Shown: one piece after another, positions 1 through 9,038 of the stretch
Layout: each line of letters begins with the position of its first letter
Numbering within the stretch: the stretch's first letter is position 1
Origin: an uncultured bacterium
Lineage (GTDB): Bacteria > Patescibacteriota > Minisyncoccia > Phycocordibacterales > UBA1006
NCBI GenBank assembly: GCA_903873095.1
Contig: CAIQMU010000096.1
Location: forward strand, 1 to 14,459
Reading direction: 5' to 3'
DNA: 14,459 nt
Made by a program: the position numbers and the translations under genes
Notes under the pieces: model-generated
What the model was told of the DNA's origin: nothing
Seen by the model: only the letters and a program-made list of their open reading frames with translations
Database searches by the model: none

Positions 1-51
1 ATCCTCCCCTTTATAAGGGGAGGTGCCGAGGCTCTGCGAGGCGGAGGGGTT
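1..51 (+). repeat. GC-rich hairpin repeat, copy 1
   Basis: The first 50 bases match 7753-7802 at 48 of 50 positions (differences at repeat positions 12 and 34). The 25 bases at 1-25 recur inverted at 496-520. Bases 3-23 form a 9-bp stem (CCTCCCCTT / AAGGGGAGG) with a 3-base loop. About 64% of the 50 bases are G or C, well above the surrounding DNA. The direct repeat CGAGGC occurs twice in its core (27-32 and 37-42). Confidence 0.9.
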
Positions 52-88
52 TTTATTTTTTCTTTATTTTTTCTTTATCTCAATATTG

Positions 89-94
89 TAAAAT
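89..94 (+). promoter_or_regulatory. -10-like box for the DUF559 gene
   Basis: TAAAAT lies nine bases before the ATG at 104. No convincing -35 is visible; the upstream sequence is a T-rich run. The spacing predicts a leader of about three bases, as for several other genes in this window. Confidence 0.4.
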
Positions 95-103
95 TCTTCT
101 CTT

Positions 104-454
104 ATGACAAGACTTTACAATCAAGGAATTTTAAAAGAAAGACGCAAAGAATTGCGGAAAAATCTTACTCCAGAGGAGGCGATCATGTGGAATGTTTTGC
201 GCAGGTATTTTAAAAGTGCAAGATTTCGCAGACAATATTCTCTTGGTCCGTACATATTTGATTTTTATTCTGTAAAACATCGTATTGCAATCGAACTCGA
301 TGGTTCACAACATTTGGACAATGCTGAATATGACAAAGAACGAGACAGATATGCATATTCTTGTAATATTAGAACTTTGCGATTTTGGAACAAGGAAGTC
401 AGAGAAAATTTGGATGGAGTTGTAATTGCTATAGGAAAGGAGATTTTGTCGTAA
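104..454 (+). CDS. DUF559 endonuclease-domain protein (Vsr-like fold)
   Basis: A 116-residue protein that is essentially one DUF559 domain. This family belongs to the PD-(D/E)XK-type, very-short-patch-repair-like nucleases. Family landmarks are visible in order: LTPEEAIMWNVLR (21-33), FRRQYSLG (41-48), YIFDFYS with Asp53 (50-56), and the core AIELDGSQH with Glu64, Asp66, Gln69 and His70 (62-70), followed by a Y-x3-R segment and LRFWNKEV (92-99). The candidate catalytic residues are therefore intact. The substrate and cellular role of the family are not established. The gene is convergent to rpsI and bracketed by inverted repeats. The start at 104 follows a TAAAAT box by nine bases. No Shine-Dalgarno sequence is seen. 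A role in copying or moving the flanking repeats is possible but inferred only from the arrangement. Confidence 0.9.
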   Translation: MTRLYNQGILKERRKELRKNLTPEEAIMWNVLRRYFKSARFRRQYSLGPYIFDFYSVKHRIAIELDGSQHLDNAEYDKERDRYAYSCNIRTLRFWNKEVRENLDGVVIAIGKEILS

Positions 455-458
455 TTCC

Positions 459-520
459 AACCCCTCCGTCATTCGCCCGAGGCCAAGGCGAATGCCACCT
501 CCCCTTATAAAGGGGAGGAT
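459..520 (-). repeat. GC-rich hairpin repeat, copy 2, variant core
   Basis: On the minus strand this copy starts with the same 25 bases as copy 1 (496-520) and ends with the same CGGAGGGGTT block (459-468). The 27-base core between them is unrelated to the 16-base core of copies 1 and 3. It forms its own hairpin, CATTCGCC / GGCGAATG, with a nine-base loop. It begins five bases after the DUF559 stop codon. Confidence 0.85.
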
Positions 521-530
521 TTTTCGCGCA

Positions 531-563
531 AGAAAAAAGTCCTGTTTCCAGGACATTTTTCTT
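531..563. terminator. Bidirectional intrinsic terminator (rpsI operon / DUF559)
   Basis: A hairpin GTCCTG / CAGGAC (539-554) has an A-rich left flank and a T-rich right flank, so a U tract follows the stem on either strand. Read on the minus strand, the loop is GAAA and the stem can be extended by A-U pairs. It lies about 20 bases beyond the rpsI stop codon and separates the convergent DUF559 and rpsI genes. Confidence 0.85.
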
Positions 564-581
564 GTGCTTGTAGCAAACGAA

Positions 582-989
582 TTATCGTTTTGACCACTGT
601 GAAGATTTTCGAGCTTTCTTGAGTCCGAACTTGCGTCGTTCTTTTGAACGCGCATCTCGTTTCAAGAAACCAAGTTTTTTCACTTCTGATTTCAAGACTT
701 CGTCAGTTGTAGAAAGTGCTCGTGCAATTCCGTGGCGGATAGCCTCGGCTTGTGAATGAACACCACCTCCTTTGACGACAACCGTTATGGCATAGTCTTT
801 TACATCCTTTGGTTTCTGAAGAGATTCAGAAGCAACGCGGACCAAGTCCTTTGTTGCAAAGTATGCATCGACTGGCTTATCGTTGACGATGAATGAAGGA
901 GTTGCTGATTCTGTAATGCGTACGCGTGCGGTTGACGTTTTGCGTCGTCCGATGGCTGCAATGTATTGTGCTGATTTTGCTGCTGACAT
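582..989 (-). CDS. rpsI: 30S ribosomal protein S9
   Basis: A 135-residue S9, close to the usual bacterial length of about 130. Typical features are the N-terminal AIGRRKTSTARVRI (12-25), the glycine-rich VVVKGGGVHSQAEAIRHGIARAL segment in the middle, and the basic C-terminal tail (RRKFGLKKARK... ending SKR). In the family the tail reaches into the ribosomal P site. It is the last gene of the ribosomal operon; it follows rplM by five bases, the usual rplM-rpsI pair, and is followed by a strong terminator. No Shine-Dalgarno sequence precedes the ATG. Confidence 0.98.
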   Translation of the reverse strand: MSAAKSAQYIAAIGRRKTSTARVRITESATPSFIVNDKPVDAYFATKDLVRVASESLQKPKDVKDYAITVVVKGGGVHSQAEAIRHGIARALSTTDEVLKSEVKKLGFLKRDARSKERRKFGLKKARKSSQWSKR

Positions 990-994
990 ACTAG

Positions 995-1336
995 TTAGTC
1001 GTTGATGACCAAATTCTTAAGAGTCGGCGTGCGCAACTTGTTGCGAGGAAGCATTCCTCGAACGGTGCGCATAACGGCTTCCTTCATACCTCGTCGACCG
1101 ATCAAGTGACCTCGAGATTCTTTTTTCAAACCTCCCGGGTAACCTGAGTAACTTTGGTATTCTTCTTGTAAACGTTTTTCCGAAAGATCGAGTTGTGAAG
1201 CATTGTTGATGATCACTCGAACTTTGGAAACTTTATTGGGTGCAAATCCCGTGTCGTGTTTACCTCGCAGATACGCTGCGGCTTCACTTGCGACGCGGCC
1301 AAGCTTTTTCCCTGCTGCATCAATAATGTATTCCAT
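995..1336 (-). CDS. rplM: 50S ribosomal protein L13, short form
   Basis: A 113-residue L13. It starts at the family's IIDAAGKKLGRVASEAA motif (4-20) and contains the conserved SGYPGG (64-69) and RRGMKEAVMRTVRGMLPRNKL block. The E. coli protein is 142 residues. The missing part is the N-terminal strand normally found before the DA-x-GKxLGR motif, plus some C-terminal residues. An in-frame stop lies a few codons upstream of this ATG, so no longer start is available. Shortened L13 agrees with the reduced ribosomal proteins of Patescibacteria. It lies between rplQ and rpsI in the operon. The start lacks a Shine-Dalgarno sequence. Confidence 0.96.
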   Translation of the reverse strand: MEYIIDAAGKKLGRVASEAAAYLRGKHDTGFAPNKVSKVRVIINNASQLDLSEKRLQEEYQSYSGYPGGLKKESRGHLIGRRGMKEAVMRTVRGMLPRNKLRTPTLKNLVIND

Positions 1337-1359
1337 AAATGGTTGGGTCTAGTTAATAA

Positions 1360-1719
1360 TTAGACGAATTCGATCAATGCCATTTCACTGCCATCTGACA
1401 AGCGATTTGGAAGTTTAAGAATTCGGATGTAGCCACCGTGTCGGTCGGCATACTTCGGAGCAATGTTCTTGATAAGTTCGTGTGCAACATCGAGCTGTCC
1501 GCCCATGTCTGCTGCAAGGTTTCGGATGACTGAGAGATCACTTGGACCTTTCTTGGCAACCGTAACCATCTTTTCAACCATCGGTCGGATTTCTTTGGCA
1601 CGTGGAAGTGTTGTCTGAATTCGTCCGTTGATGACCAGAGCACGAATCAAAGAGCGCAAGAATGCTTTGCGGTCTTTTCGTTCTCGTCCGAATTTTCGGT
1701 TGTTATCGTGGTGTCGCAT
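1360..1719 (-). CDS. rplQ: 50S ribosomal protein L17
   Basis: A 119-residue L17, normal bacterial length. It starts MRHHDNNRKFGRERKDRKAF, the family's basic N-terminus, followed by LRSLIRALVINGRIQTTLPRAKEIRPMVEKMVTVAK. The end carries the typical GGYIRILKLPNRLSDGSEMALIEFV. It is six bases downstream of rpoA, the standard rpoA-rplQ order, and was probably translated from the same mRNA. The start lies in an A/T-rich stretch without Shine-Dalgarno sequence. Confidence 0.97.
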   Translation of the reverse strand: MRHHDNNRKFGRERKDRKAFLRSLIRALVINGRIQTTLPRAKEIRPMVEKMVTVAKKGPSDLSVIRNLAADMGGQLDVAHELIKNIAPKYADRHGGYIRILKLPNRLSDGSEMALIEFV

Positions 1720-1725
1720 AAAATA

Positions 1726-2706
1726 TTATTTCTTAAGTGAGAGGTTGTAGCCCGAAAGCACGTCCTTTACTTCATTCAATCCTTTCTCGCCAAATCCATC
1801 AAGATCAAGCAAGCCTTCTTCTGTCTTCTGGAGCAATCCTCCGACTGTTCGGATTCCTGCATCTGAAAGTGCGTTGAGTGTTCGTGTTGAAAATTGAAGT
1901 GAATCGATGCGAGTTTTCAACATCTCTGTAAGATCTTCTTTGTCCATTTCTGGTTCAGAATCTTCTTTTGATGATGCTGATGATACTGTTACCGGTTCAG
2001 GAATTTTTGTTTCTGCGATTTCTTTCAAATCAAGAATCGCACGAAACTGATCAAGCATGATTTTGATTGACATTTCAAGTACATCTTTTGGAGATACTGA
2101 TCCATCTGTATCAATCGTCATGCGAAGACGGTTGTAGTTTGTTCGATCACCGACACGCATATCCTCGACATCGTAGCTTGCGCCAACGACCGGTGAGAAT
2201 CGTGCATCTGTCATGATTGTTCCAACATCAACCTTTTCCTTGGTAAGAGCTTCTCGAGAAACGAATCCGAGTCCTTTTGAGACAACGATTTCGATTGCGA
2301 GTTCTCCTTTGCCTGAAATTTCCGCGATCACTTGATCAGGATTCATGACGACAAGACCTCCTGGTGTTTCAAAATCCCCAGCTGTTACAACTCCACTTTT
2401 AACCGAAAGAGTTGCCGTTTGAGACTCGTCACCTGCGATTTGGAAGCGAACTTTTTTCAAGTTGAGAATGATCGCCATCACGTCTTCACGAACTCCTGGG
2501 AGTGTTGAGAATTCATGATCAGCTCCCTTAATTTTCACACTTGTGATCGCAGCACCCGGAATCGATGAATAGATAATTCGGCGCAAGGAATTTCCGAGCG
2601 TATGCCCGTATCCAGGATACAATCCTTCGATTTCGAAGATTCCGCGTTTGTCGTCGCTTGAAACGATTTTGAGTTTTGAAGGCAAGACGATTGAAAGGTT
2701 CATCAT
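1726..2706 (-). CDS. rpoA: DNA-directed RNA polymerase subunit alpha
   Basis: A 326-residue alpha subunit of usual length. The N-terminal assembly domain (about 1-235) contains the dimerisation segment GYGHTLGNSLRRIIYSSIPG (32-51). An acidic, Ser/Glu-rich linker (about 240-260) leads to the C-terminal domain (about 262-326). There, Arg275 and Asn278 occupy the positions of E. coli Arg265 and Asn268, which contact UP-element DNA. The helix-hairpin-helix part DLDGFGEKGLNEV follows. The ORF begins ATG ATG, so initiation could be at 2706 or 2703. It is within the ribosomal operon between rpsD (52-base gap) and rplQ (6-base gap). Retaining a full C-terminal domain suggests that promoter recognition through UP-like elements is kept in this reduced genome. 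Confidence 0.98.
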   Translation of the reverse strand: MMNLSIVLPSKLKIVSSDDKRGIFEIEGLYPGYGHTLGNSLRRIIYSSIPGAAITSVKIKGADHEFSTLPGVREDVMAIILNLKKVRFQIAGDESQTATLSVKSGVVTAGDFETPGGLVVMNPDQVIAEISGKGELAIEIVVSKGLGFVSREALTKEKVDVGTIMTDARFSPVVGASYDVEDMRVGDRTNYNRLRMTIDTDGSVSPKDVLEMSIKIMLDQFRAILDLKEIAETKIPEPVTVSSASSKEDSEPEMDKEDLTEMLKTRIDSLQFSTRTLNALSDAGIRTVGGLLQKTEEGLLDLDGFGEKGLNEVKDVLSGYNLSLKK

Positions 2707-2758
2707 AATAATTTGGGGATGATGATAGATTGATAAATAAAGGACTCTCTCGTACTAA

Positions 2759-3361
2759 TTATCGACTGTAGAACTCGATTACGGCCTGGAAGTTAAGGAA
2801 TGCATCAGGAGTTTTTGGATCTCCTGAGACTTTCGCGGTAAGCGCCTTGTCATCCCATGTCAACCATTCTGGTTTCTTCACTGCTTTTAATTTAACCGCA
2901 GCTTCAGCAAACAATCCGTTTGATTTACTTCCTTCGCGAATAGCGACAACATCTCCAAGCTTTACAGCGTATGACGGAATTGTCATTTTCTTGCCGTTAA
3001 CGGTGAAATGTCCATGGGAAGCCATCTGTCGTGCCAAGGCTCGCGTAGATGCAAAGCCGAGTCGGTAGATAACATTGTCGAGTCGTTCTTCGAGCTGTCG
3101 GAAGAGAAGTGTTGCAGGGGTTGTGCCTTTCTTGGCAGTTTCCATTGCGTGTTCCACGTAATTTCCAAATTGCTTTTCACGAACACCGTACATAAATCGA
3201 ACTTTTTGTTTTTCGATGAGCTGGTTTCCGTAGTCAGAACGTCGTCCACCCATTTTCTTTCCCTTTTTAACAGGTTCAGATTGAGCGAATTTTGCAGTCT
3301 GGCATTTTTCAAAGATTGGTGTACCGAGTCGTCGGCACAACTTGTATTTTTTCTGTGTCAT
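2759..3361 (-). CDS. rpsD: 30S ribosomal protein S4
   Basis: A 200-residue S4, near the usual 200-208. The S4 RNA-binding domain is at about 92-152 (RLDNVIYRLGF, STRALARQMASHGHFTVNG). The C-terminus ends with the family's LNFQAVIEFYSR-type tail. Only two cysteines (9 and 20) are present in the N-terminal region, where zinc-binding S4 proteins have four, so a zinc site is unlikely. S4 nucleates 30S assembly; in other bacteria it can repress its own operon, but nothing in this sequence shows that. It lies 12 bases after rpsK. Confidence 0.97.
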   Translation of the reverse strand: MTQKKYKLCRRLGTPIFEKCQTAKFAQSEPVKKGKKMGGRRSDYGNQLIEKQKVRFMYGVREKQFGNYVEHAMETAKKGTTPATLLFRQLEERLDNVIYRLGFASTRALARQMASHGHFTVNGKKMTIPSYAVKLGDVVAIREGSKSNGLFAEAAVKLKAVKKPEWLTWDDKALTAKVSGDPKTPDAFLNFQAVIEFYSR

Positions 3362-3373
3362 ATAATTATTTGA

Positions 3374-3808
3374 TTATACGCGTCGTGGCTTTTTCGCACG
3401 TGGACCATTAAATGGAACGGGTGTGCGATCTTTGATCGAGAGAAGCTCGATTCCTTTGCCTGAAAACGCCTTAATTGCTGATTCTCGACCAGAACCAACT
3501 CCTCGTACAACAACGTGAACTTCTTTGAGTCCGATCATTGCAGCTTTTTCAGCGAGAACTTCACCGATTTTTGCAGCAGCAAACGGAGTACCTTTTTTGG
3601 CACCTTTAAACCCAAGAGCACCTGATGATGATGACATGATGGCGTTTCCGTCCATGTCTGTCAAAAGAGCTTTGGTGTTGTTGAATGTTGCCTGAACATG
3701 AAGAATTCCTGTAACAAGCTTCTTTTTAGGTGTACGCGAAACAGCACGGTCTCGAAGAGACTTGTCAACGCGGGTACCTTCTGTTTTTACAATTCGTTTT
3801 TTACCCAT
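3374..3808 (-). CDS. rpsK: 30S ribosomal protein S11
   Basis: A 144-residue S11, slightly longer than the usual 128-130 because of a basic N-terminal extension (about residues 1-33: MGKKRIVKTEG...TPKKK). The core starts at GILHVQATFNNTKALLTDMDG and contains SSGALGFKGAKKGTPFAA and VVVRGVGSGRESAIKA. The C-terminus has the typical DRTPVPFNGPRAKKPRRV. It is four bases downstream of rpsM. S11 sits on the 30S platform next to the mRNA exit region where an anti-Shine-Dalgarno helix would form, but no direct link to the lack of such sequences here is shown. Confidence 0.97.
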   Translation of the reverse strand: MGKKRIVKTEGTRVDKSLRDRAVSRTPKKKLVTGILHVQATFNNTKALLTDMDGNAIMSSSSGALGFKGAKKGTPFAAAKIGEVLAEKAAMIGLKEVHVVVRGVGSGRESAIKAFSGKGIELLSIKDRTPVPFNGPRAKKPRRV

Positions 3809-3812
3809 ATGA

Positions 3813-4193
3813 TTATGTCTTCGAATCGGTCTTTCGTCCCGATCCCATGGTTACACGCTTGTTTCCTCGAACCGTTCGTGAATTTGTCTTTGTTCGCTGA
3901 CCCTTTGTAGGGAGTCCACGCGCATGACGCATTCCTCGGTATGAACCGATATCTTTCAAACGTTTTACGTTTTGTCCGATTTCACGCTTCAAGTTTCCTT
4001 CTAATTTCATTTCCTCGACAAGTTTTCGGATGGCAACTTCGTTATCTGCAGTCAAATCTTTGATCTTACTGATTGGGTCGATCTTGCAAGTCTTGCAAAT
4101 AGCAAGTGCGCGTGCAGGTCCGATTCCATAGATAGCGGTCAAGCCATACTGAACATTTTTGTTGTCGGGAAGAGTAATTCCTAGTAAACGCAT
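3813..4193 (-). CDS. rpsM: 30S ribosomal protein S13
   Basis: A 126-residue S13 starting MRLLGITLPDNKNVQYGLTA, followed by the helix-two-turn-helix IYGIGPARALAICK and the C-terminal SYRGMRHARGLPTKGQRTKTN signature with its basic tail. The open frame continues 25 codons upstream, but that stretch overlaps rpmJ and lacks similarity to S13. The ATG at 4193, seven bases after the rpmJ stop codon, is therefore preferred. The protein contacts the P-site tRNA and bridges to the 50S subunit. No Shine-Dalgarno sequence is present. Confidence 0.96.
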   Translation of the reverse strand: MRLLGITLPDNKNVQYGLTAIYGIGPARALAICKTCKIDPISKIKDLTADNEVAIRKLVEEMKLEGNLKREIGQNVKRLKDIGSYRGMRHARGLPTKGQRTKTNSRTVRGNKRVTMGSGRKTDSKT

Positions 4194-4200
4194 ATAATAA

Positions 4201-4314
4201 TTATTGTCGAGCCTTGTGGCGCGGGTTTTTCTTGTTAATGCGATACAAACGACCTTTTCGTCGAACAATGATATCGTCCGGACTAATTTTTTTGATTGAT
4301 GATCGAATTTTCAT
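4201..4314 (-). CDS. rpmJ: 50S ribosomal protein L36, cysteine-free form
   Basis: A 37-residue L36, found by translating the gap between infA and rpsM. It starts [20 protein letters not shown], and the remaining residues are [17 protein letters not shown] followed by TAA. The family pattern K-x-R-x-S-x-K, RRKGR and NPRHKxRQ is clear. The zinc-ribbon positions normally occupied by Cys and His hold other residues (SPDD in place of C-x2-C), so this is a non-zinc version. Its place between infA and rpsM is the standard order. The ATG is 69 bases after the infA stop, with no Shine-Dalgarno sequence. Confidence 0.94.
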
Positions 4315-4383
4315 AATCTGTATCTTATAATTAATAAATTTCAGAATAGCTGACAAAATATAAACGAGGGTAATCTAAAATAA

Positions 4384-4599
4384 TTACGCTCGTTTTACGT
4401 TTCTTCCCTTCCCTCCGTAGGGTTCGAGAAGCACATGAACCGTATCACCGATCAAAACTTTGATGCGATGAAGTTTCATTTTGCCTGAAAGGTAGGAAAC
4501 TTGTTCCGTACCATCTTGAAAACGTACGCGAAACATAGCGTTCGGTAACGCTTCGATGACTTCTGCTGTGACGATGTTTTTTTCGTCTGTGGGTACCAT
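4384..4599 (-). CDS. infA: Translation initiation factor IF-1
   Basis: A 71-residue OB-fold protein, the usual IF-1 size. Recognisable segments are VTAEVIEALPNAMFRVRFQDG (about 9-29), SGKMKLHRIKVLIGDTVHVLLEPYG and the GR-x-V-x-R end. The open frame extends to an ATG at 4623, but this longer start would place the first codons over the -10 box of the promoter (4614-4619), so ATG 4599 is chosen. It is the first gene of the operon. IF-1 binds the 30S A site and helps start-codon selection. The predicted mRNA leader is only about eight bases and has no Shine-Dalgarno sequence. Confidence 0.95.
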   Translation of the reverse strand: MVPTDEKNIVTAEVIEALPNAMFRVRFQDGTEQVSYLSGKMKLHRIKVLIGDTVHVLLEPYGGKGRNVKRA

Positions 4600-4613
4600 G
4601 TGCAGTAAACACC

Positions 4614-4642
4614 ATCCTATCAAAAATGCTTTATAATGTCAA
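4614..4642 (-). promoter_or_regulatory. Promoter of the infA-rpsI operon
   Basis: On the minus strand a perfect -35 TTGACA (4637-4642) is followed after exactly 17 bases by TAGGAT (4614-4619, four of six matches to TATAAT). The predicted transcript start is near 4607, eight bases before the infA ATG. This is the best -35 in the window, fitting a highly expressed operon. Confidence 0.7.
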
Positions 4643-4706
4643 CACACCGCGAGTTATCCACTCCTCAAATCCCCTATTTACAAGGATTTAAAAAGTGTGG
4701 CAACAA

Positions 4707-4731
4707 AATTTCCCCCGTCAAGAGGGAAATT
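4707..4731. repeat. Inverted repeat upstream of infA promoter
   Basis: AATTTCCC (4707-4714) and GGGAAATT (4724-4731) form a perfect 8-bp inverted repeat with a nine-base spacer. It lies between the terminator of the neighbouring gene and the infA promoter, about 65 bases upstream of the -35. It could be a protein-binding site or a backup hairpin; its function is unknown. Confidence 0.4.
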
Positions 4732-4748
4732 CACAGGTTTTTCCAACA

Positions 4749-4771
4749 AAAAACCACCTTTTAAGGGTGGT
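4749..4771 (-). terminator. Intrinsic terminator after the 317-residue protein gene
   Basis: On the minus strand ACCACC / GGTGGT (4753-4771), extended by weaker inner pairs, is followed by a run of six T. It starts nine bases beyond the stop codon at 4780. Confidence 0.8.
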
Positions 4772-4779
4772 TTTAATCT

Positions 4780-5733
4780 CTAGTTCGTAAACGCAAAGTT
4801 CAAATTCTGCATTTCTTGATCAAACATCTGATAAGTTGAAGACTGATTTGGTGCTTGAGTGCTTGGATTCGTGCGATCGTACTGGTCAGTGAAAATCAAA
4901 TTATAGAATTGTCCATTGTGAGGCGCGCAGTAAACAGCATCAATCGAATTACTTTCCATTCCACCAAAACCACCTGTGCCGGTAATTTTTTGAAATATTA
5001 TTCCATTTATTGAAATACTACTTGTCACCTGACTTGCTGAGCCACTTATATTACTCTCACATGAGGTACCGACATCGAGATTATGAATTCCTGGAACACC
5101 ATAAGGCGTATTGGAAGACCAAGACACTCCATCTTGTCTAAGTGAAATACCTTGTGGCAGAGTCATTTGAAAATGATACGTCGCATTACTGAAGACATTA
5201 GCGCTTGACTGTTGATTTGCATTGATGGTAAATGAATTATCAGAAAAATCTTCTGCGCCTGAATTTGAATCTGGAGGAGTACTTATTTCAATAATATATT
5301 TTCCAGATGTTATAGTACTGGGTATAGTAACAACCTCACTGCCACTTGTTCCAGAAATCCACCCTCCAAGAAAATTTTCATTACTTGTTGAATTAGGATT
5401 ACCACTTGAATTGAAACCAGCAAAACCTAAGAGTGTTACTCCAACCTGAGTTTTAACATTGCAGCTCTTCCACGTTATCGTGATTTGCTGTCCTGCGATA
5501 TATGTTTCTCCTCCATTCGGCGAAAGCACTGTAATTGAAGGATTACATGATGCTGTAGATGAAGATGTTGTAGTCGTAACTTGTGACGAAAGAGTTTGTG
5601 GTGTTTCATTAAGATTCGACTGTGATCCGTCAATTTGAATAACAGGTGCCGGCGTTGCTGTTTTCCAAATCGCATATCCACTAATGGCAATAATAATTAA
5701 AACAAGAATTCCAATAACAATGTTTTTGTTCAT
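4780..5733 (-). CDS. Membrane-anchored secreted protein with Kre9/Knh1-like domain (paralog A)
   Basis: A 317-residue protein with an uncleaved-looking N-terminal membrane segment (about 4-22, MNKNIVIGIL then hydrophobic) and a Ser/Thr-rich linker. An Ig-like segment follows (about 63-171), starting CNPSITVLSPNGGETYIAGQ and continuing ITITWKSC. This resembles Kre9/Knh1-type domains common in Parcubacteria surface proteins. The C-terminal domain (about 179-317) has two cysteines (225, 269) that could pair outside the cell. The first 38 and last about 140 residues are clearly related to the next gene, which lacks the Ig-like part. Function is unknown; location is probably the outer face of the membrane. 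A TATACT box lies eight bases before the ATG. Confidence 0.6.
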   Translation of the reverse strand: MNKNIVIGILVLIIIAISGYAIWKTATPAPVIQIDGSQSNLNETPQTLSSQVTTTTSSSTASCNPSITVLSPNGGETYIAGQQITITWKSCNVKTQVGVTLLGFAGFNSSGNPNSTSNENFLGGWISGTSGSEVVTIPSTITSGKYIIEISTPPDSNSGAEDFSDNSFTINANQQSSANVFSNATYHFQMTLPQGISLRQDGVSWSSNTPYGVPGIHNLDVGTSCESNISGSASQVTSSISINGIIFQKITGTGGFGGMESNSIDAVYCAPHNGQFYNLIFTDQYDRTNPSTQAPNQSSTYQMFDQEMQNLNFAFTN

Positions 5734-5741
5734 ACGAGTCC

Positions 5742-5770
5742 AGTATAAAACGTTCCAAGTTAAAAAACAA
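5742..5770 (-). promoter_or_regulatory. Promoter of paralog A, near-leaderless
   Basis: TATACT (5742-5747) is eight bases before the ATG at 5733, with TTGTTT (5765-5770) 17 bases further upstream. The sequence from the -10 to the ATG is nearly the same as before paralog B (TATACTGRACTCGT). The -35 overlaps the terminator of the upstream gene. Confidence 0.55.
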
Positions 5771-5788
5771 CCTTTGGAAAGGTGGTTT
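5762..5788 (-). terminator. Intrinsic terminator after paralog B
   Basis: On the minus strand AAACCACCTTT / AAAGGTTGTTT (5765-5788) pairs with one mismatch and runs into six T. It resembles the terminators at 4749-4771 and 6461-6484. Confidence 0.7.
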
Positions 5789-5800
5789 AGTGATTAGATG

Positions 5801-6433
5801 TTAACTTTTCGTTGCGGTTGTAAACGCAAAATTCAAACTCTGCATTTCTTGGTCAAATGTTTGATACGTTGCTAATGCATCAGGAATTTGGACACCTGGA
5901 GTAACGCGATCATACTGATCAGTGAAAATTAATGTGTAATATTGTCCATTGTGAGCTGCGCAGTAAGAAGCATCGAGGGAGTTACTTTGCATTCCTCCAA
6001 AAGCTCCTGTACCAGTAATTTTCTGGAACACTACACCATTGATCGCGACCGTACTCTTTACTTGACTTGCCGCCCCACTCACACTATTAGGACACGAAGC
6101 ACTAATTCCGAGACTACGAATACCTGGCACACCATAGGCAGTATTAGCAGACCAAGACGCACCGTCTTGTCGTAGTGAAATACCTTTTGGTAATGTCATT
6201 TTAAAATGATAGGTAGTATTTGTGTACACATTCGAACTTGATAATGAAGATGACGAAGTTGTAGTAGTACTTGTCTTCTGTGTCGAAGATGTCGGCGAAG
6301 TCTGGGTCGTTGTCGACTGCTCTGTTCCGTTAGTTTGAGTAATAGATGCCGGTGTAGATGTTTTCCAAATCGCATATGCACCAAGCGCAATGATAATGAC
6401 TGCAAGGATTCCAATGACGATGTTTTTGTTCAT
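5801..6433 (-). CDS. Membrane-anchored secreted protein (paralog B)
   Basis: A 210-residue protein with an N-terminal membrane segment (about 4-22), nearly identical at its start to the neighbouring paralog (MNKNIVIGIL in both). A long Ser/Thr/Gln linker (about 36-68) follows, then a C-terminal domain (about 69-205). Shared motifs with paralog A include TYHFKMTLPKGISLRQDG (74-91), YGVPGI, NGVVFQKITGTG, HNGQYYTLIFTDQYDR (161-176) and FDQEMQSLNFAFT. The cysteines at 114 and 158 match those in paralog A. The Ig-like segment of paralog A is absent. I do not recognise the C-terminal domain. Gene, promoter and terminator are duplicated together, suggesting tandem duplication. The Thr/Ser-rich linker would be typical of a glycosylated or extended surface stalk (inference). 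Confidence 0.6.
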   Translation of the reverse strand: MNKNIVIGILAVIIIALGAYAIWKTSTPASITQTNGTEQSTTTQTSPTSSTQKTSTTTTSSSSLSSSNVYTNTTYHFKMTLPKGISLRQDGASWSANTAYGVPGIRSLGISASCPNSVSGAASQVKSTVAINGVVFQKITGTGAFGGMQSNSLDASYCAAHNGQYYTLIFTDQYDRVTPGVQIPDALATYQTFDQEMQSLNFAFTTATKS

Positions 6434-6441
6434 ACGAGTTC

Positions 6442-6447
6442 AGTATA
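6442..6447 (-). promoter_or_regulatory. -10 box of paralog B, near-leaderless
   Basis: TATACT is eight bases before the ATG at 6433, in the same sequence context as for paralog A. The region 17 bases upstream shows no clear -35. Confidence 0.5.
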
Positions 6448-6460
6448 AACCTATTTAATA

Positions 6461-6484
6461 AAAAAACCACCTGTGAAGTGGTTT
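6461..6484 (-). terminator. Intrinsic terminator overlapping the stop codon of the baseplate-J-like gene
   Basis: On the minus strand AAACCAC / GTGGTTT (6464-6484) with a seven-base loop is followed by a run of T. The stem includes two bases of the TAA stop codon (6483-6485). Confidence 0.75.
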
Positions 6485-7895
6485 AATTACTGATTGGTTT
6501 TATTACCACCGTGATCTGACTCGGATCCGTTGGTAACAATCTACGCCAAGGAGGTGTAACTGAAAGTGTGTAAGATATTATTTCAGGTGTCTTGTTTAAA
6601 ATTGTTCGTGTCTGACTACGCGTCTGCCCTGCTACGAGCGCAACAATAGTACTTGGTGTAATGTTCCCTACGAGCGTAGCTGTTCCTGTAATACGAACAT
6701 GGATCGTTTGTGGAATTGCTCCACCTTGCGCAACATCCGATGATGTTACTGTTAATCCATTCCAAGAATTAAGAACAACGTCCGTTCCTTGTGGAACATT
6801 CAAACTTGTTCCAAGTGATGTTGCGATCGCAGATTTATCAATCACAAATGTGCTAACGGTTCTATGTGCAACAACATGAACCCCATCATTTTGCGTTCCA
6901 TCAATCGTAATTGTTGGATCAGCAAGAGGAATAACAAGTGGCAATGCAATACTGTTATCAGGCAAATCATCAGTGAGTCTTGCGACCAATGCATTTTGAT
7001 CAGCAAGATTTGATTTCACTGTTTGTTCTGCTTGTGCAAGAACCATCGGATCAGCGGTTGATTCATTTCCTGATGCACCACCGGAAATCACCGTGGTTGA
7101 ATGTATCGTAATTAATTTTTCAGATGCAGTCGGTTTTGCAAATGTAAAATCATCCAATGCATCATTTCCAGTATCACCCGCGTTTACCGCAGTAACCACT
7201 GCATCAACCTGCCCTGACTTAATTGATGAAGCTGCTTTTGGTATGGTAAACGATTTATTTGTTGCGTACTCTACTTGTTTTGATGAAATAATAATCGTTC
7301 CACTTGGGATTGTTTTTGATGTTGTCGTCGAATTATAAAATCTTACCGTTCCTGTTGCCTTTGTATCAGTAGCAGATCGTCCTGTTGCAGGAATGACAAC
7401 TTGGGATGTGAAATCTTTAGTCACCATTCCAATCTGAATATTTGTCGCCGAGCGTGTTTGAGAAAGTGTTATTGAATCATCAACAGTACCTGTGAATGTT
7501 TTTGGACCAATGACAATAGTTGCGTGTGTAAACAAACCGCCCACAACGAATACGATGGCAATGATTGCAATGAAGGCAATGATCCAAACAACACATCCAA
7601 ATCGTCCTTTTGGTTTGTCCCCATAGTGATGAACAAGTTGATCTATTGATCGTTCTTCTTGTTCAAAATAATCAAGTTCTATTTCCTCTGATTCACTTGA
7701 TTCTAAAATATCTTCATCTTGCTCTTGTTCAACAATTTCTTCTTCGTCCGAAATCCTCCCCTTCATAAGGGGAGGTGCCGAGGCTTTGCGAGGCGGAGGG
7801 GTGGTGCGCGACAAAACTTCCACCTCTTTTTTAGGTGAAGTCTTTGGTTTCATGACCATGTCAGACATTAGCTTTTTTTTCTTTAGTTTGTCCAT
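6483..7895 (-). CDS. Single-pass membrane protein with baseplate-J-like extracellular region
   Basis: A 470-residue protein. The N-terminal cytoplasmic part (1-98) starts with a lysine-rich segment and contains a strongly acidic stretch (about 49-82). A membrane helix (about 101-124) follows, then a large beta-rich extracellular region. Residues about 170-255 (VVIPATGRSATDTKATGTVRF, then IPSGTIIISS and AVNAGDTGN) resemble the baseplate J/gp47-like domain often annotated in CPR membrane proteins. The C-terminal part (about 325-465) is Thr/Val-rich. Residues 32-48 (TPPPRKASAPPLMKGRI) are encoded entirely by a copy of the dispersed repeat and are probably a late insertion in a disordered tail. 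It starts three bases after the FtsA/PilM-like gene's stop, implying coupled translation and a shared role at the envelope. No phage genes lie nearby. Confidence 0.55.
   Translation of the reverse strand: MDKLKKKKLMSDMVMKPKTSPKKEVEVLSRTTPPPRKASAPPLMKGRISDEEEIVEQEQDEDILESSESEEIELDYFEQEERSIDQLVHHYGDKPKGRFGCVVWIIAFIAIIAIVFVVGGLFTHATIVIGPKTFTGTVDDSITLSQTRSATNIQIGMVTKDFTSQVVIPATGRSATDTKATGTVRFYNSTTTSKTIPSGTIIISSKQVEYATNKSFTIPKAASSIKSGQVDAVVTAVNAGDTGNDALDDFTFAKPTASEKLITIHSTTVISGGASGNESTADPMVLAQAEQTVKSNLADQNALVARLTDDLPDNSIALPLVIPLADPTITIDGTQNDGVHVVAHRTVSTFVIDKSAIATSLGTSLNVPQGTDVVLNSWNGLTVTSSDVAQGGAIPQTIHVRITGTATLVGNITPSTIVALVAGQTRSQTRTILNKTPEIISYTLSVTPPWRRLLPTDPSQITVVIKPISN
7753..7802 (+). repeat. 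GC-rich hairpin repeat, copy 3, inside a coding sequence
   Basis: These 50 bases match 1-50 at 48 positions, including the CCTCCCCTT / AAGGGGAGG hairpin (one base of the stem changed) and the CGGAGGGGT end. The copy is antisense to the gene that contains it and is read through in frame, with no stop codon, as residues 32-48 of the host protein. No DUF559 gene accompanies it. Confidence 0.9.
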
Positions 7896-7898
7896 AAA

Positions 7899-9038
7899 TT
7901 AGTTCAAACTGTCGAGACAATATTCAATCGCCTGCGCAAGAGAGCTTGTTTTGACTTGTGTATCATGTGCAAACACAAGCGCATAAGGTTCCACATCGTC
8001 ACTTGCAACAGCAATCGGCGCACCAAGTTCACGCGCAATCACCGGCGCAAGAGCCGAGATCCATGCAACATCAGCAGACAACACAATCACGTTTGGCACG
8101 TTGTCTACTTGTTTTTTAAGAGTCTCAAACGAAGCGCGGACTTCATGCAGCCACGATTCACACGCACGAAGTGTTCGCTTGTAATAAATATCACGTTCAT
8201 TTTCAACAAGTCCAATATCTGTTGCAAATGACATTGTTGAATCGATTAATTTTTTAGGTATTGAAAATTCATGTGCGATCGCATGCTCAATATCATGCAG
8301 TCCTCCTTGGGATGAACTGCTTGAAAGAATATTTTTTCGATCGATTAACATCCAGTCAGTGGAAACACCCCCTATCGAAAGACTGAGAATTTTTTCCTCT
8401 GAAATAGCATGCGCAAACACATGTGCACGTGACACTAATGTAACATCATCACGGTGAAAGACACTTGCGACCGCAAGTTTTAATTGTTCCTGTACAAGTT
8501 TCGGTATCACTGATGCTGACCTTGCAATACCAAGAGATGGTATTGTTCCACCAACAACGTGCGCATCTACTCGATATCCATTTACACTGAATATGGGTTT
8601 TGTCATATCAAAAATGGCAAGGTCTTCGGAGTTGGGAAATTCGCGTCGCATATCAGAATCTGCTGCACGCGTGTCACGCAAAAGAGCTTCGTCAATCATT
8701 GATTGTGAGACTTTAAATTCACCACCTTTTTCAATATGTATAGATCTCGGCATGGTCGCAATCCAAGGTTCGCCCACAACGCAAAATAATTTTGTTGGAT
8801 TTCCACCATGAGACCTTGCTTGCTCCAAAACATGATGAAGTGCTTGTACCGCATTACCTAATGTTTCTCCTTGAATTTTTTCTGATGTCGAAAACAAAAC
8901 AAGTGGAGCATTCATAGTTCCCTCAGTATTAAATCTGCGCACGACTGCAACGGTTGCGCAATAACTATCAATCGTGCAAATGCAAAATGTTTCAACGGGC
9001 AGTTGTTTTTTTGATGTTCCAAAAAGAGATCGTGACAT
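7899..9038 (-). CDS. FtsA/PilM-like actin-fold protein, divergent
   Basis: A 379-residue protein with the layout of the FtsA/PilM branch of actin-like ATPases. A phosphate-1-like strand-turn (FCICTIDSYCATVAVV, 18-33), a phosphate-2-like loop (LSLSIGGVSTDWMLID, 218-233) and a C-terminal adenosine-like segment (NVIVLSADVAWISAL, 316-330) can be placed. The usual Asp before GG in phosphate 2 is Ser221, and the GG of the adenosine loop is replaced, so nucleotide binding may be altered. In known systems such proteins form membrane-associated filaments or link pilus and division machines. Its partner here is probably the membrane protein encoded three bases downstream, whose cytoplasmic tail could be the contact (inference). 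It starts six bases after a TATACT box, without Shine-Dalgarno sequence. Confidence 0.6.
   Translation of the reverse strand: MSRSLFGTSKKQLPVETFCICTIDSYCATVAVVRRFNTEGTMNAPLVLFSTSEKIQGETLGNAVQALHHVLEQARSHGGNPTKLFCVVGEPWIATMPRSIHIEKGGEFKVSQSMIDEALLRDTRAADSDMRREFPNSEDLAIFDMTKPIFSVNGYRVDAHVVGGTIPSLGIARSASVIPKLVQEQLKLAVASVFHRDDVTLVSRAHVFAHAISEEKILSLSIGGVSTDWMLIDRKNILSSSSSQGGLHDIEHAIAHEFSIPKKLIDSTMSFATDIGLVENERDIYYKRTLRACESWLHEVRASFETLKKQVDNVPNVIVLSADVAWISALAPVIARELGAPIAVASDDVEPYALVFAHDTQVKTSSLAQAIEYCLDSLN

Follow-up and report, generated by a model that had tools for sequence, protein, structure and literature searches.

The 14,459-nt contig CAIQMU010000096.1 of an uncultured member of the Patescibacteriota (the whole stretch being referred to as the window) begins, at positions 1-520, with what we interpret, at a probability of roughly 0.6, as a small mobile element spanning some 0.5 kb, i.e. 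one gene for a Vsr-fold nuclease of the DUF559 (PF04480) family set between two inverted bipartite hairpin units, with the nuclease driving its spread. The package recurs in many bacterial phyla, where its location varies and can even be within an essential gene, and is best read as a mobile element resembling repetitive extragenic palindromic (REP) sequences that has the Vsr-fold nuclease as its own enzyme. An earlier note on the window, made from its letters, had suggested that nuclease and repeats might be spread together.

Anatomy of the element and its nuclease

The features concerned, with two neighbours, are:

1-50, plus strand: left hairpin unit, head outward, the contig start falling within the unit; AT, palindromic head at 3-23 (CCTCCCCTTTATAAGGGGAGG), second-hairpin region at 24-42, inner tail GGAGGGG at 43-49
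104-454, plus strand: DUF559 (PF04480) nuclease gene, 116 aa, Pfam E 1.1e-28
460-520, minus strand: right hairpin unit, inverted; on the inner side ACCCCTCC (460-467), CGTC (467-470) and second hairpin (470-477/487-494); on the outer side CCA (495-497), palindromic head (498-518) and AT (519-520)
7753-7802, plus strand: third unit, solo, without nuclease, 96% identical to 1-50; in-frame reading ..RTTPPPRKASAPPLMKGRIS..
6483-7895, minus strand: 470-aa open reading frame (ORF) with the solo unit 7753-7802 in its N-terminal linker
526-567, minus strand: stem-loop (stem pairing 89%) and T-run 3' of rpsI, adjoining the element; to judge from its sequence, likely the rpsI terminator
582-989, minus strand: rpsI (S9), neighbouring gene, named from the earlier note and the sequence

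Each unit is bipartite, with the outer palindrome followed, towards the gene, by a further hairpin and the tail GGAGGGGT. The DUF559 gene that the earlier note had placed at the start of the window is confirmed by its profile match (99.7 bits, the curated cut-off being 20.6), and the third, nuclease-free repeat copy that it had reported is present at 7753-7802. Its statement that the outer 25 bases are perfectly inverted is accurate, positions 1-25 and 496-520 matching at 100%, but the match is largely trivial because the 21-nt heads are palindromic; the inverted orientation follows instead from the asymmetry of the units, 1-50 and 460-520 each having the palindrome on the outside and the GGAGGGG tail on the gene side. 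Past 25 nt the arms diverge, the second hairpin differing in subtype between left and right. DNA-fold z-scores against mononucleotide shuffles were -3.5 for the left arm and -5.1 for the right, and no Rfam family reached its gathering score within window positions 1-9000. For the solo unit no empty site is demonstrable, because the linker of ORF 6483-7895 is not alignable among relatives.

The predicted fold of the 104-454 product matches both Vsr and the homing endonuclease I-Bth0305I, the matching being limited to families in the VIA list. In an alignment of 52 sequences E64, H70 and D77 are invariant and D66 is conserved in at least 90%, and we assign these four residues, from sequence, to a putative EDxHD motif, EDxHD being the name given to a nuclease family in the part of PMC6083498 drawn on here. 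By predicted fold and E-D-H-D residues the protein is thus a fit for an EDxHD/Vsr-fold nuclease, and its gene is under purifying selection. The sole NCBIfam match, NF007294, scored 71.7 bits, under its cut-off of 218, and in the one anti-phage library searched, PADLOC-DB, no model matched at E<=0.001. Pfam still labels DUF559 a protein of unknown function, for which the element would provide a possible role.

Recurrence, relocation and pairing with repeat type

DUF559 loci were chosen by protein alone in three samples (70 named, 15 window-family and 29 window-class loci; 114 in total), and their 200-nt flanks were compared with those of other ORFs from the same loci (n=192). Inverted repeats, counted at a score of at least 16, were found at 54/114 DUF559 loci vs 3/192 control ORFs (named 27/70, family 11/15 and class 16/29; controls 3/159, 0/15 and 0/18, respectively), an excess over chance for which the earlier note had proposed looking, and one that gives good support to its suggestion of joint spread. 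A G/C-rich hairpin lay on at least one side of 93/114 DUF559 loci vs 20/192 control ORFs (58/70, 12/15 and 23/29 by sample; controls 17/159, 1/15 and 2/18) and on both sides of 25/70, 7/15 and 12/29 (controls 2/159, 0/15 and 0/18), hairpins being commoner upstream of the gene (88/120) than downstream (58/120). Direct repeats also occurred in the flanks of 21/70 named loci vs 7/159 controls; at some loci (L231, L246) they arise because each flank is itself a hairpin pair. In Neisseria gonorrhoeae (L245) the DUF559 flanks contain a strong direct repeat of score 80, and one of the two also has CTCTCTCCC-type hairpins.

Of the 13 groups of the named set, as assigned by record names, 10 included one or more loci with such flanking repeats, and there were none among the set's Chloroflexota (2 loci), Armatimonadota (1) or unassigned (3) members; five weak or fused family matches showed no inverted repeat above score 12. 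The anatomy of the window element thus recurs in multiple phyla with arm sequences that vary from locus to locus. We regard two things as nearly certain: hairpin units enclose DUF559 genes at a far higher rate than other genes, and many DUF559 genes have relocated.

Relocation is apparent from non-orthologous positions with empty counterparts. Downstream of rpsI, where the earlier note had considered that the gene might be fixed in all relatives, the element is absent from the first 700 nt in 3/3 genomes of the same genus. The leucyl-tRNA synthetase (LeuRS) gene of genome G003 (L196) contains a DUF559 domain and both arms in frame (inverted-repeat score 35.5), whereas three congeneric LeuRS genes lack the insert; further in-frame DUF559 copies occur in TatD (G004), a methyltransferase ORF (G001) and, with a weak inverted repeat (10.5), the glutamate synthase of an alphaproteobacterial metagenome-assembled genome. 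The G003 LeuRS also has a NUDIX domain and, by eye, two more hairpin-like peptide inserts (LTPSLRFPQGKARP, SPERGAPRSGEGYG).

Three Deinococcus plasmids contain homologous elements within the hpa operon. That of D. proteolyticus lies between the oxidoreductase gene and hpaB, and that of NW-56 between hpaE and the oxidoreductase gene, which in D. proteolyticus share a 4-nt overlap. These two sites are surely different; the D. aetherius element, upstream of a VOC gene, could occupy the NW-56 site after loss of the oxidoreductase gene. The three hpa elements (L224, L227, L229) come from a set of four DUF559 elements examined on Deinococcus plasmids; their shared operon may reflect a hot spot, a target preference or a common history. 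Between paaD and paaZ an element is present in D. psychrotolerans where D. sp. QL22 has an 83-nt spacer, in which an inverted repeat of different sequence was seen by eye; this spacer is unalignable outside the genes, and an exact target-site duplication is not readable there. The sufB-sufC junction is likewise occupied in Sphingomonas and short in Azospirillum brasilense. Four similar elements (L072, L080, L087, L088) have both ends in common by eye; their outer flanks are alike for L087/L088 upstream and L080/L087 downstream, and the element ends hold in the other comparisons. A comparison of Sinorhizobium K101 with S. meliloti Ak57 was rejected as an empty site, because one site had been partly deleted and the two strains share the other.

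Nuclease-free units and unit pairs are dispersed through the window's own genome (G000; 656,782 bases, 122 contigs, 91% complete), in which the window-type head occurs in 18 places at up to 3 mismatches (3 in the window; reversed-pattern control 0). Fifteen copies were aligned from outside inward, a sixteenth, at a contig start, having no outer flank; AT directly precedes the head in 15/15 (background 0.085) and CG lies within 10 nt in 14/15 (background 0.325). One inverted unit pair, 105 nt apart, is present in C71 and a second, 96 nt apart, probably in C81. In five frames (FtsK, PIF1, a PriA-like ORF, a PilB-like ATPase and window ORF 6483-7895) units are read in frame, and these house 6 of the 15 aligned copies, two of the six as one pair. 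Of five PF04480 matches in G000, one lies within a 1220-aa frame and four are separate genes, all adjoined by hairpin repeats whose sequence varies among them: the window type, a mixture of CTCCCCC and CCCCTCC at the first C22 copy, and CCTCACCC/CCCTCTCC-type repeats at C120 and on one side of the second C22 copy, the other side of which is lost at a contig end.

Across 60 loci, arm similarity correlated with nuclease similarity (Mantel r 0.215, 0/2000 permutations). Within one family, the window's, clade and repeat type are paired: nucleases with KW[RK]RQ, from four genomes, had CCTC[AT]CC/CCCTCTCC-type repeats in 7/7 cases and the others in 0/14, for a pattern picked post hoc and with 3/24 family nucleases not classable. 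Among 188 genomes of the window's class, counted irrespective of kinship, with DUF559 scored at E<=1e-10 and the head pattern at up to one mismatch, the pattern occurred at least twice in 16/28 DUF559-positive vs 10/160 DUF559-negative genomes (Fisher p 1.3e-9), at least three times in 11/28 vs 6/160 and at least once in 21/28 vs 37/160; several of the lone matches, each with one mismatch, are identical in sequence and may belong to an ordinary conserved gene. The repeat is accordingly not equally common in genomes without DUF559, a prospect that the earlier note had raised. In the window family (20 genomes) the pattern is present in six, i.e. G000, G002, G003, G005, G007 and G014.

Mechanism and competing explanations

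The nuclease as driver of movement appears the best-supported mechanism, and cutting of the hairpins is presumed with it. The enzyme would recognise its own hairpin unit, perhaps folded out from single-stranded or cruciform DNA, or else a short target beside the unit (the outer ..CG..AT in the window's family), and would cut or nick unit or target, after which host repair would copy the hairpin-bounded DNA to new sites; solo and paired units would stand to the element as REPs and REPINs do to RAYTs, being derivatives that are not autonomous. In-frame landing inside host genes is possible because some versions of the element have no stop in one frame.

Several observations weigh against this mechanism or the mobility it explains. 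The window arms agree across 25 nt only, most of that palindrome; 21/114 loci have no hairpin of this type inside 200 nt, and the Escherichia coli locus L226 has none nearby; and the Mantel r falls to 0.141 (71/3000) once the set is thinned to 45 nucleases of lower similarity. Certain DUF559 genes appear to be vertically inherited, one site being common to 7 Azospirillum records, and the Caulobacter DUF559 protein VsrA is proposed, in the portion of PMC12907096 consulted, to be a mismatch-repair (very-short-patch, VSP, repair) enzyme. Genomes G001 and G004 have DUF559 yet no matches to the single head pattern, while G005 (5 matches) and G014 have the pattern and no DUF559 match. Six class genomes (G056, G060, G095, G169, G196, G205) hold at least three copies without DUF559; G060 and G205 have Y1_Tnp, and in the repeat-rich G056, G095, G169 and G196 neither DUF559 (E<=1e-10) nor Y1_Tnp was found, so that such hairpins there must have, or have had, another mover. 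No common gene was recognised by eye among ORFs near the hairpins of G056, G095 and G196 (L205-L217 in part). One GIY-YIG-like ORF was recognised by eye at the G056 locus L211.

It is unlikely that the nuclease is instead a free-standing homing endonuclease that targets pre-existing hairpin repeats and is copied by double-strand-break repair, the repeats spreading otherwise. The predicted fold and residues do match I-Bth0305I of the EDxHD homing family, the insertions at operon junctions and in frame recall homing genes, as does the apparently free-standing position of the window gene, and repeat-rich genomes without DUF559 exist. Moreover, at the same sufB-sufC junction Azospirillum lipoferum AZO_p3 (L258, 1022-1315) has a GIY-YIG nuclease gene with dimers of CGTC-type REPs on both sides (inverted-repeat score 42). 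Compared with EDxHD homing endonucleases and Vsr, the window gene differs in having no intron or intein and in being bounded by hairpin units. Against the homing reading, an element often has arms that resemble each other and not the arms of another element of that genome (L002 vs L003), and the empty sites that could be read (the LeuRS codons and the hpaE-oxidoreductase overlap) contain no such repeat; the differing inverted repeat of the QL22 paaD-paaZ spacer fits either view.

Also disfavoured, and quite unlikely, is the reading that DUF559 is trapped cargo and that some transposase, a RAYT (Y1 tyrosine transposase) or other, moves the hairpins in trans. The unit, solo copies and inverted pairs resemble the REP/REPIN/RAYT system as portrayed in the available part of PMC3733652, 22/28 DUF559-positive class genomes have some Y1_Tnp match, and G005 combines its 5 pattern matches with one Y1_Tnp and no DUF559. 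However, no Y1_Tnp was found in the six family genomes with strong DUF559 matches (G000-G004, G007) or in genomes G030, G057, G074, G180 and G198, other transposase families not having been searched for. Whilst repeats of score at least 16 flank 4/13 Y1_Tnp loci, they are rarely of this hairpin type, which occurs on either side of 1/13 and on both sides of 0/13; in addition the arms follow the nuclease clade and the DUF559 gene is under purifying selection. The parallels with homing nucleases and with REP-RAYT pairs drawn in the earlier note are apt, the predicted fold being that of a homing endonuclease and Vsr, yet with no Y1_Tnp in G000.

Very improbable is the view that the gene encodes a conventional Vsr-like nuclease for repair or an accessory role and shares its intergenic space with terminators or chance REPs. 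In its favour are the VsrA proposal and the loci that are repeat-free or at one common position; against it stand the control ORFs of the same loci (3/192, on which hairpins as terminators only were rejected), second hairpins and matched tails that terminators do not need, and copies at varied positions and in frame inside genes.

Relation to known repeats and mobile systems

REP-type hairpins are common repeats in bacteria. With the REP/REPIN and RAYT (TnpA_REP) systems termed REPtrons, the hairpin-bounded nuclease element shares a small hairpin unit, inverted pairs (in C71 and, probably, C81, as in REPINs), one unit-flanked enzyme gene and many gene-free copies, some of them intragenic. It differs in its enzyme, a predicted Vsr/EDxHD-fold nuclease rather than an HUH Y1 transposase: G000 has no Y1_Tnp and the flanked gene is DUF559. 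Nor is a GTAG tag conserved at either end of the 15 aligned G000 copies, the letters occurring, by eye, in the outer flank of L009 and the loop of L014. The layout is REPtron-like, and proof that the nuclease moves the repeats would make this a new kind of mechanism. With miniature inverted-repeat transposable elements it shares terminal inverted repeats and gene-free derivatives; the ends here are bipartite hairpins, however, and a parent transposase is not known.

As far as the part of a 2013 survey drawn on here goes (PMC3733652), REPs are divided into GTAG types, tied to RAYTs, and CGTC types, which include the Rickettsia palindromic elements and 'apparently lack a dedicated transposase'. 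By that account the right arm resembles the CGTC type at 467-497 (CGTC, then a stem opening with AT, then a CCA tail), a combination that also fits L008, but neither the left arm nor most G000 copies, and whose parts recur in the same order in a Novosphingobium arm; a further likeness is that some copies are read in frame within FtsK, PIF1 and other genes. The second hairpin of the right arm has an 8-bp stem that includes the C of the CGTC tag, and its loop of 9 nt departs from the stem of 8-9 bp and loop of 4-5 nt described, the larger head palindrome being extra. As other arms lack this combination, the window unit was not assigned to these REPs.

The GIY-YIG gene between CGTC dimers points to such partnerships in at least two families of small nucleases. 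We propose tentatively, at odds a little short of even, that mobile DNA of a distinct class exists throughout bacteria, with a Vsr/EDxHD-fold nuclease in place of the transposase; this enzyme would recognise its cognate hairpin and spread the elements together with their gene-free derivatives. With the GIY-YIG/CGTC-REP parallel, such nucleases would supply the missing movers of RAYT-less repeats of the REP and Rickettsia palindromic element type, including in-frame ones in essential genes. The DUF559 nuclease would be a concrete, cloneable candidate for the CGTC REP mover, a question left open in the part of PMC3733652 used, and offers a possible route for the in-frame peptide inserts in LeuRS, FtsK and PIF1. 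In open-access full text we found no description linking DUF559 to hairpin repeats, subscription literature lying mostly outside the search, and no paper joining 'GIY-YIG' with 'repetitive extragenic palindromic'.

DUF559 relatives were also observed on 23 viral contigs of IMG/VR (L126-L148), 18 of them of about 4-10 kb, and in 3 phage records (best E 4e-23). Elsewhere in the window, the genes at 4780-5733 and 5801-6433 are adjacent paralogues, 74% identical over 300 nt, and likely arose by tandem duplication.
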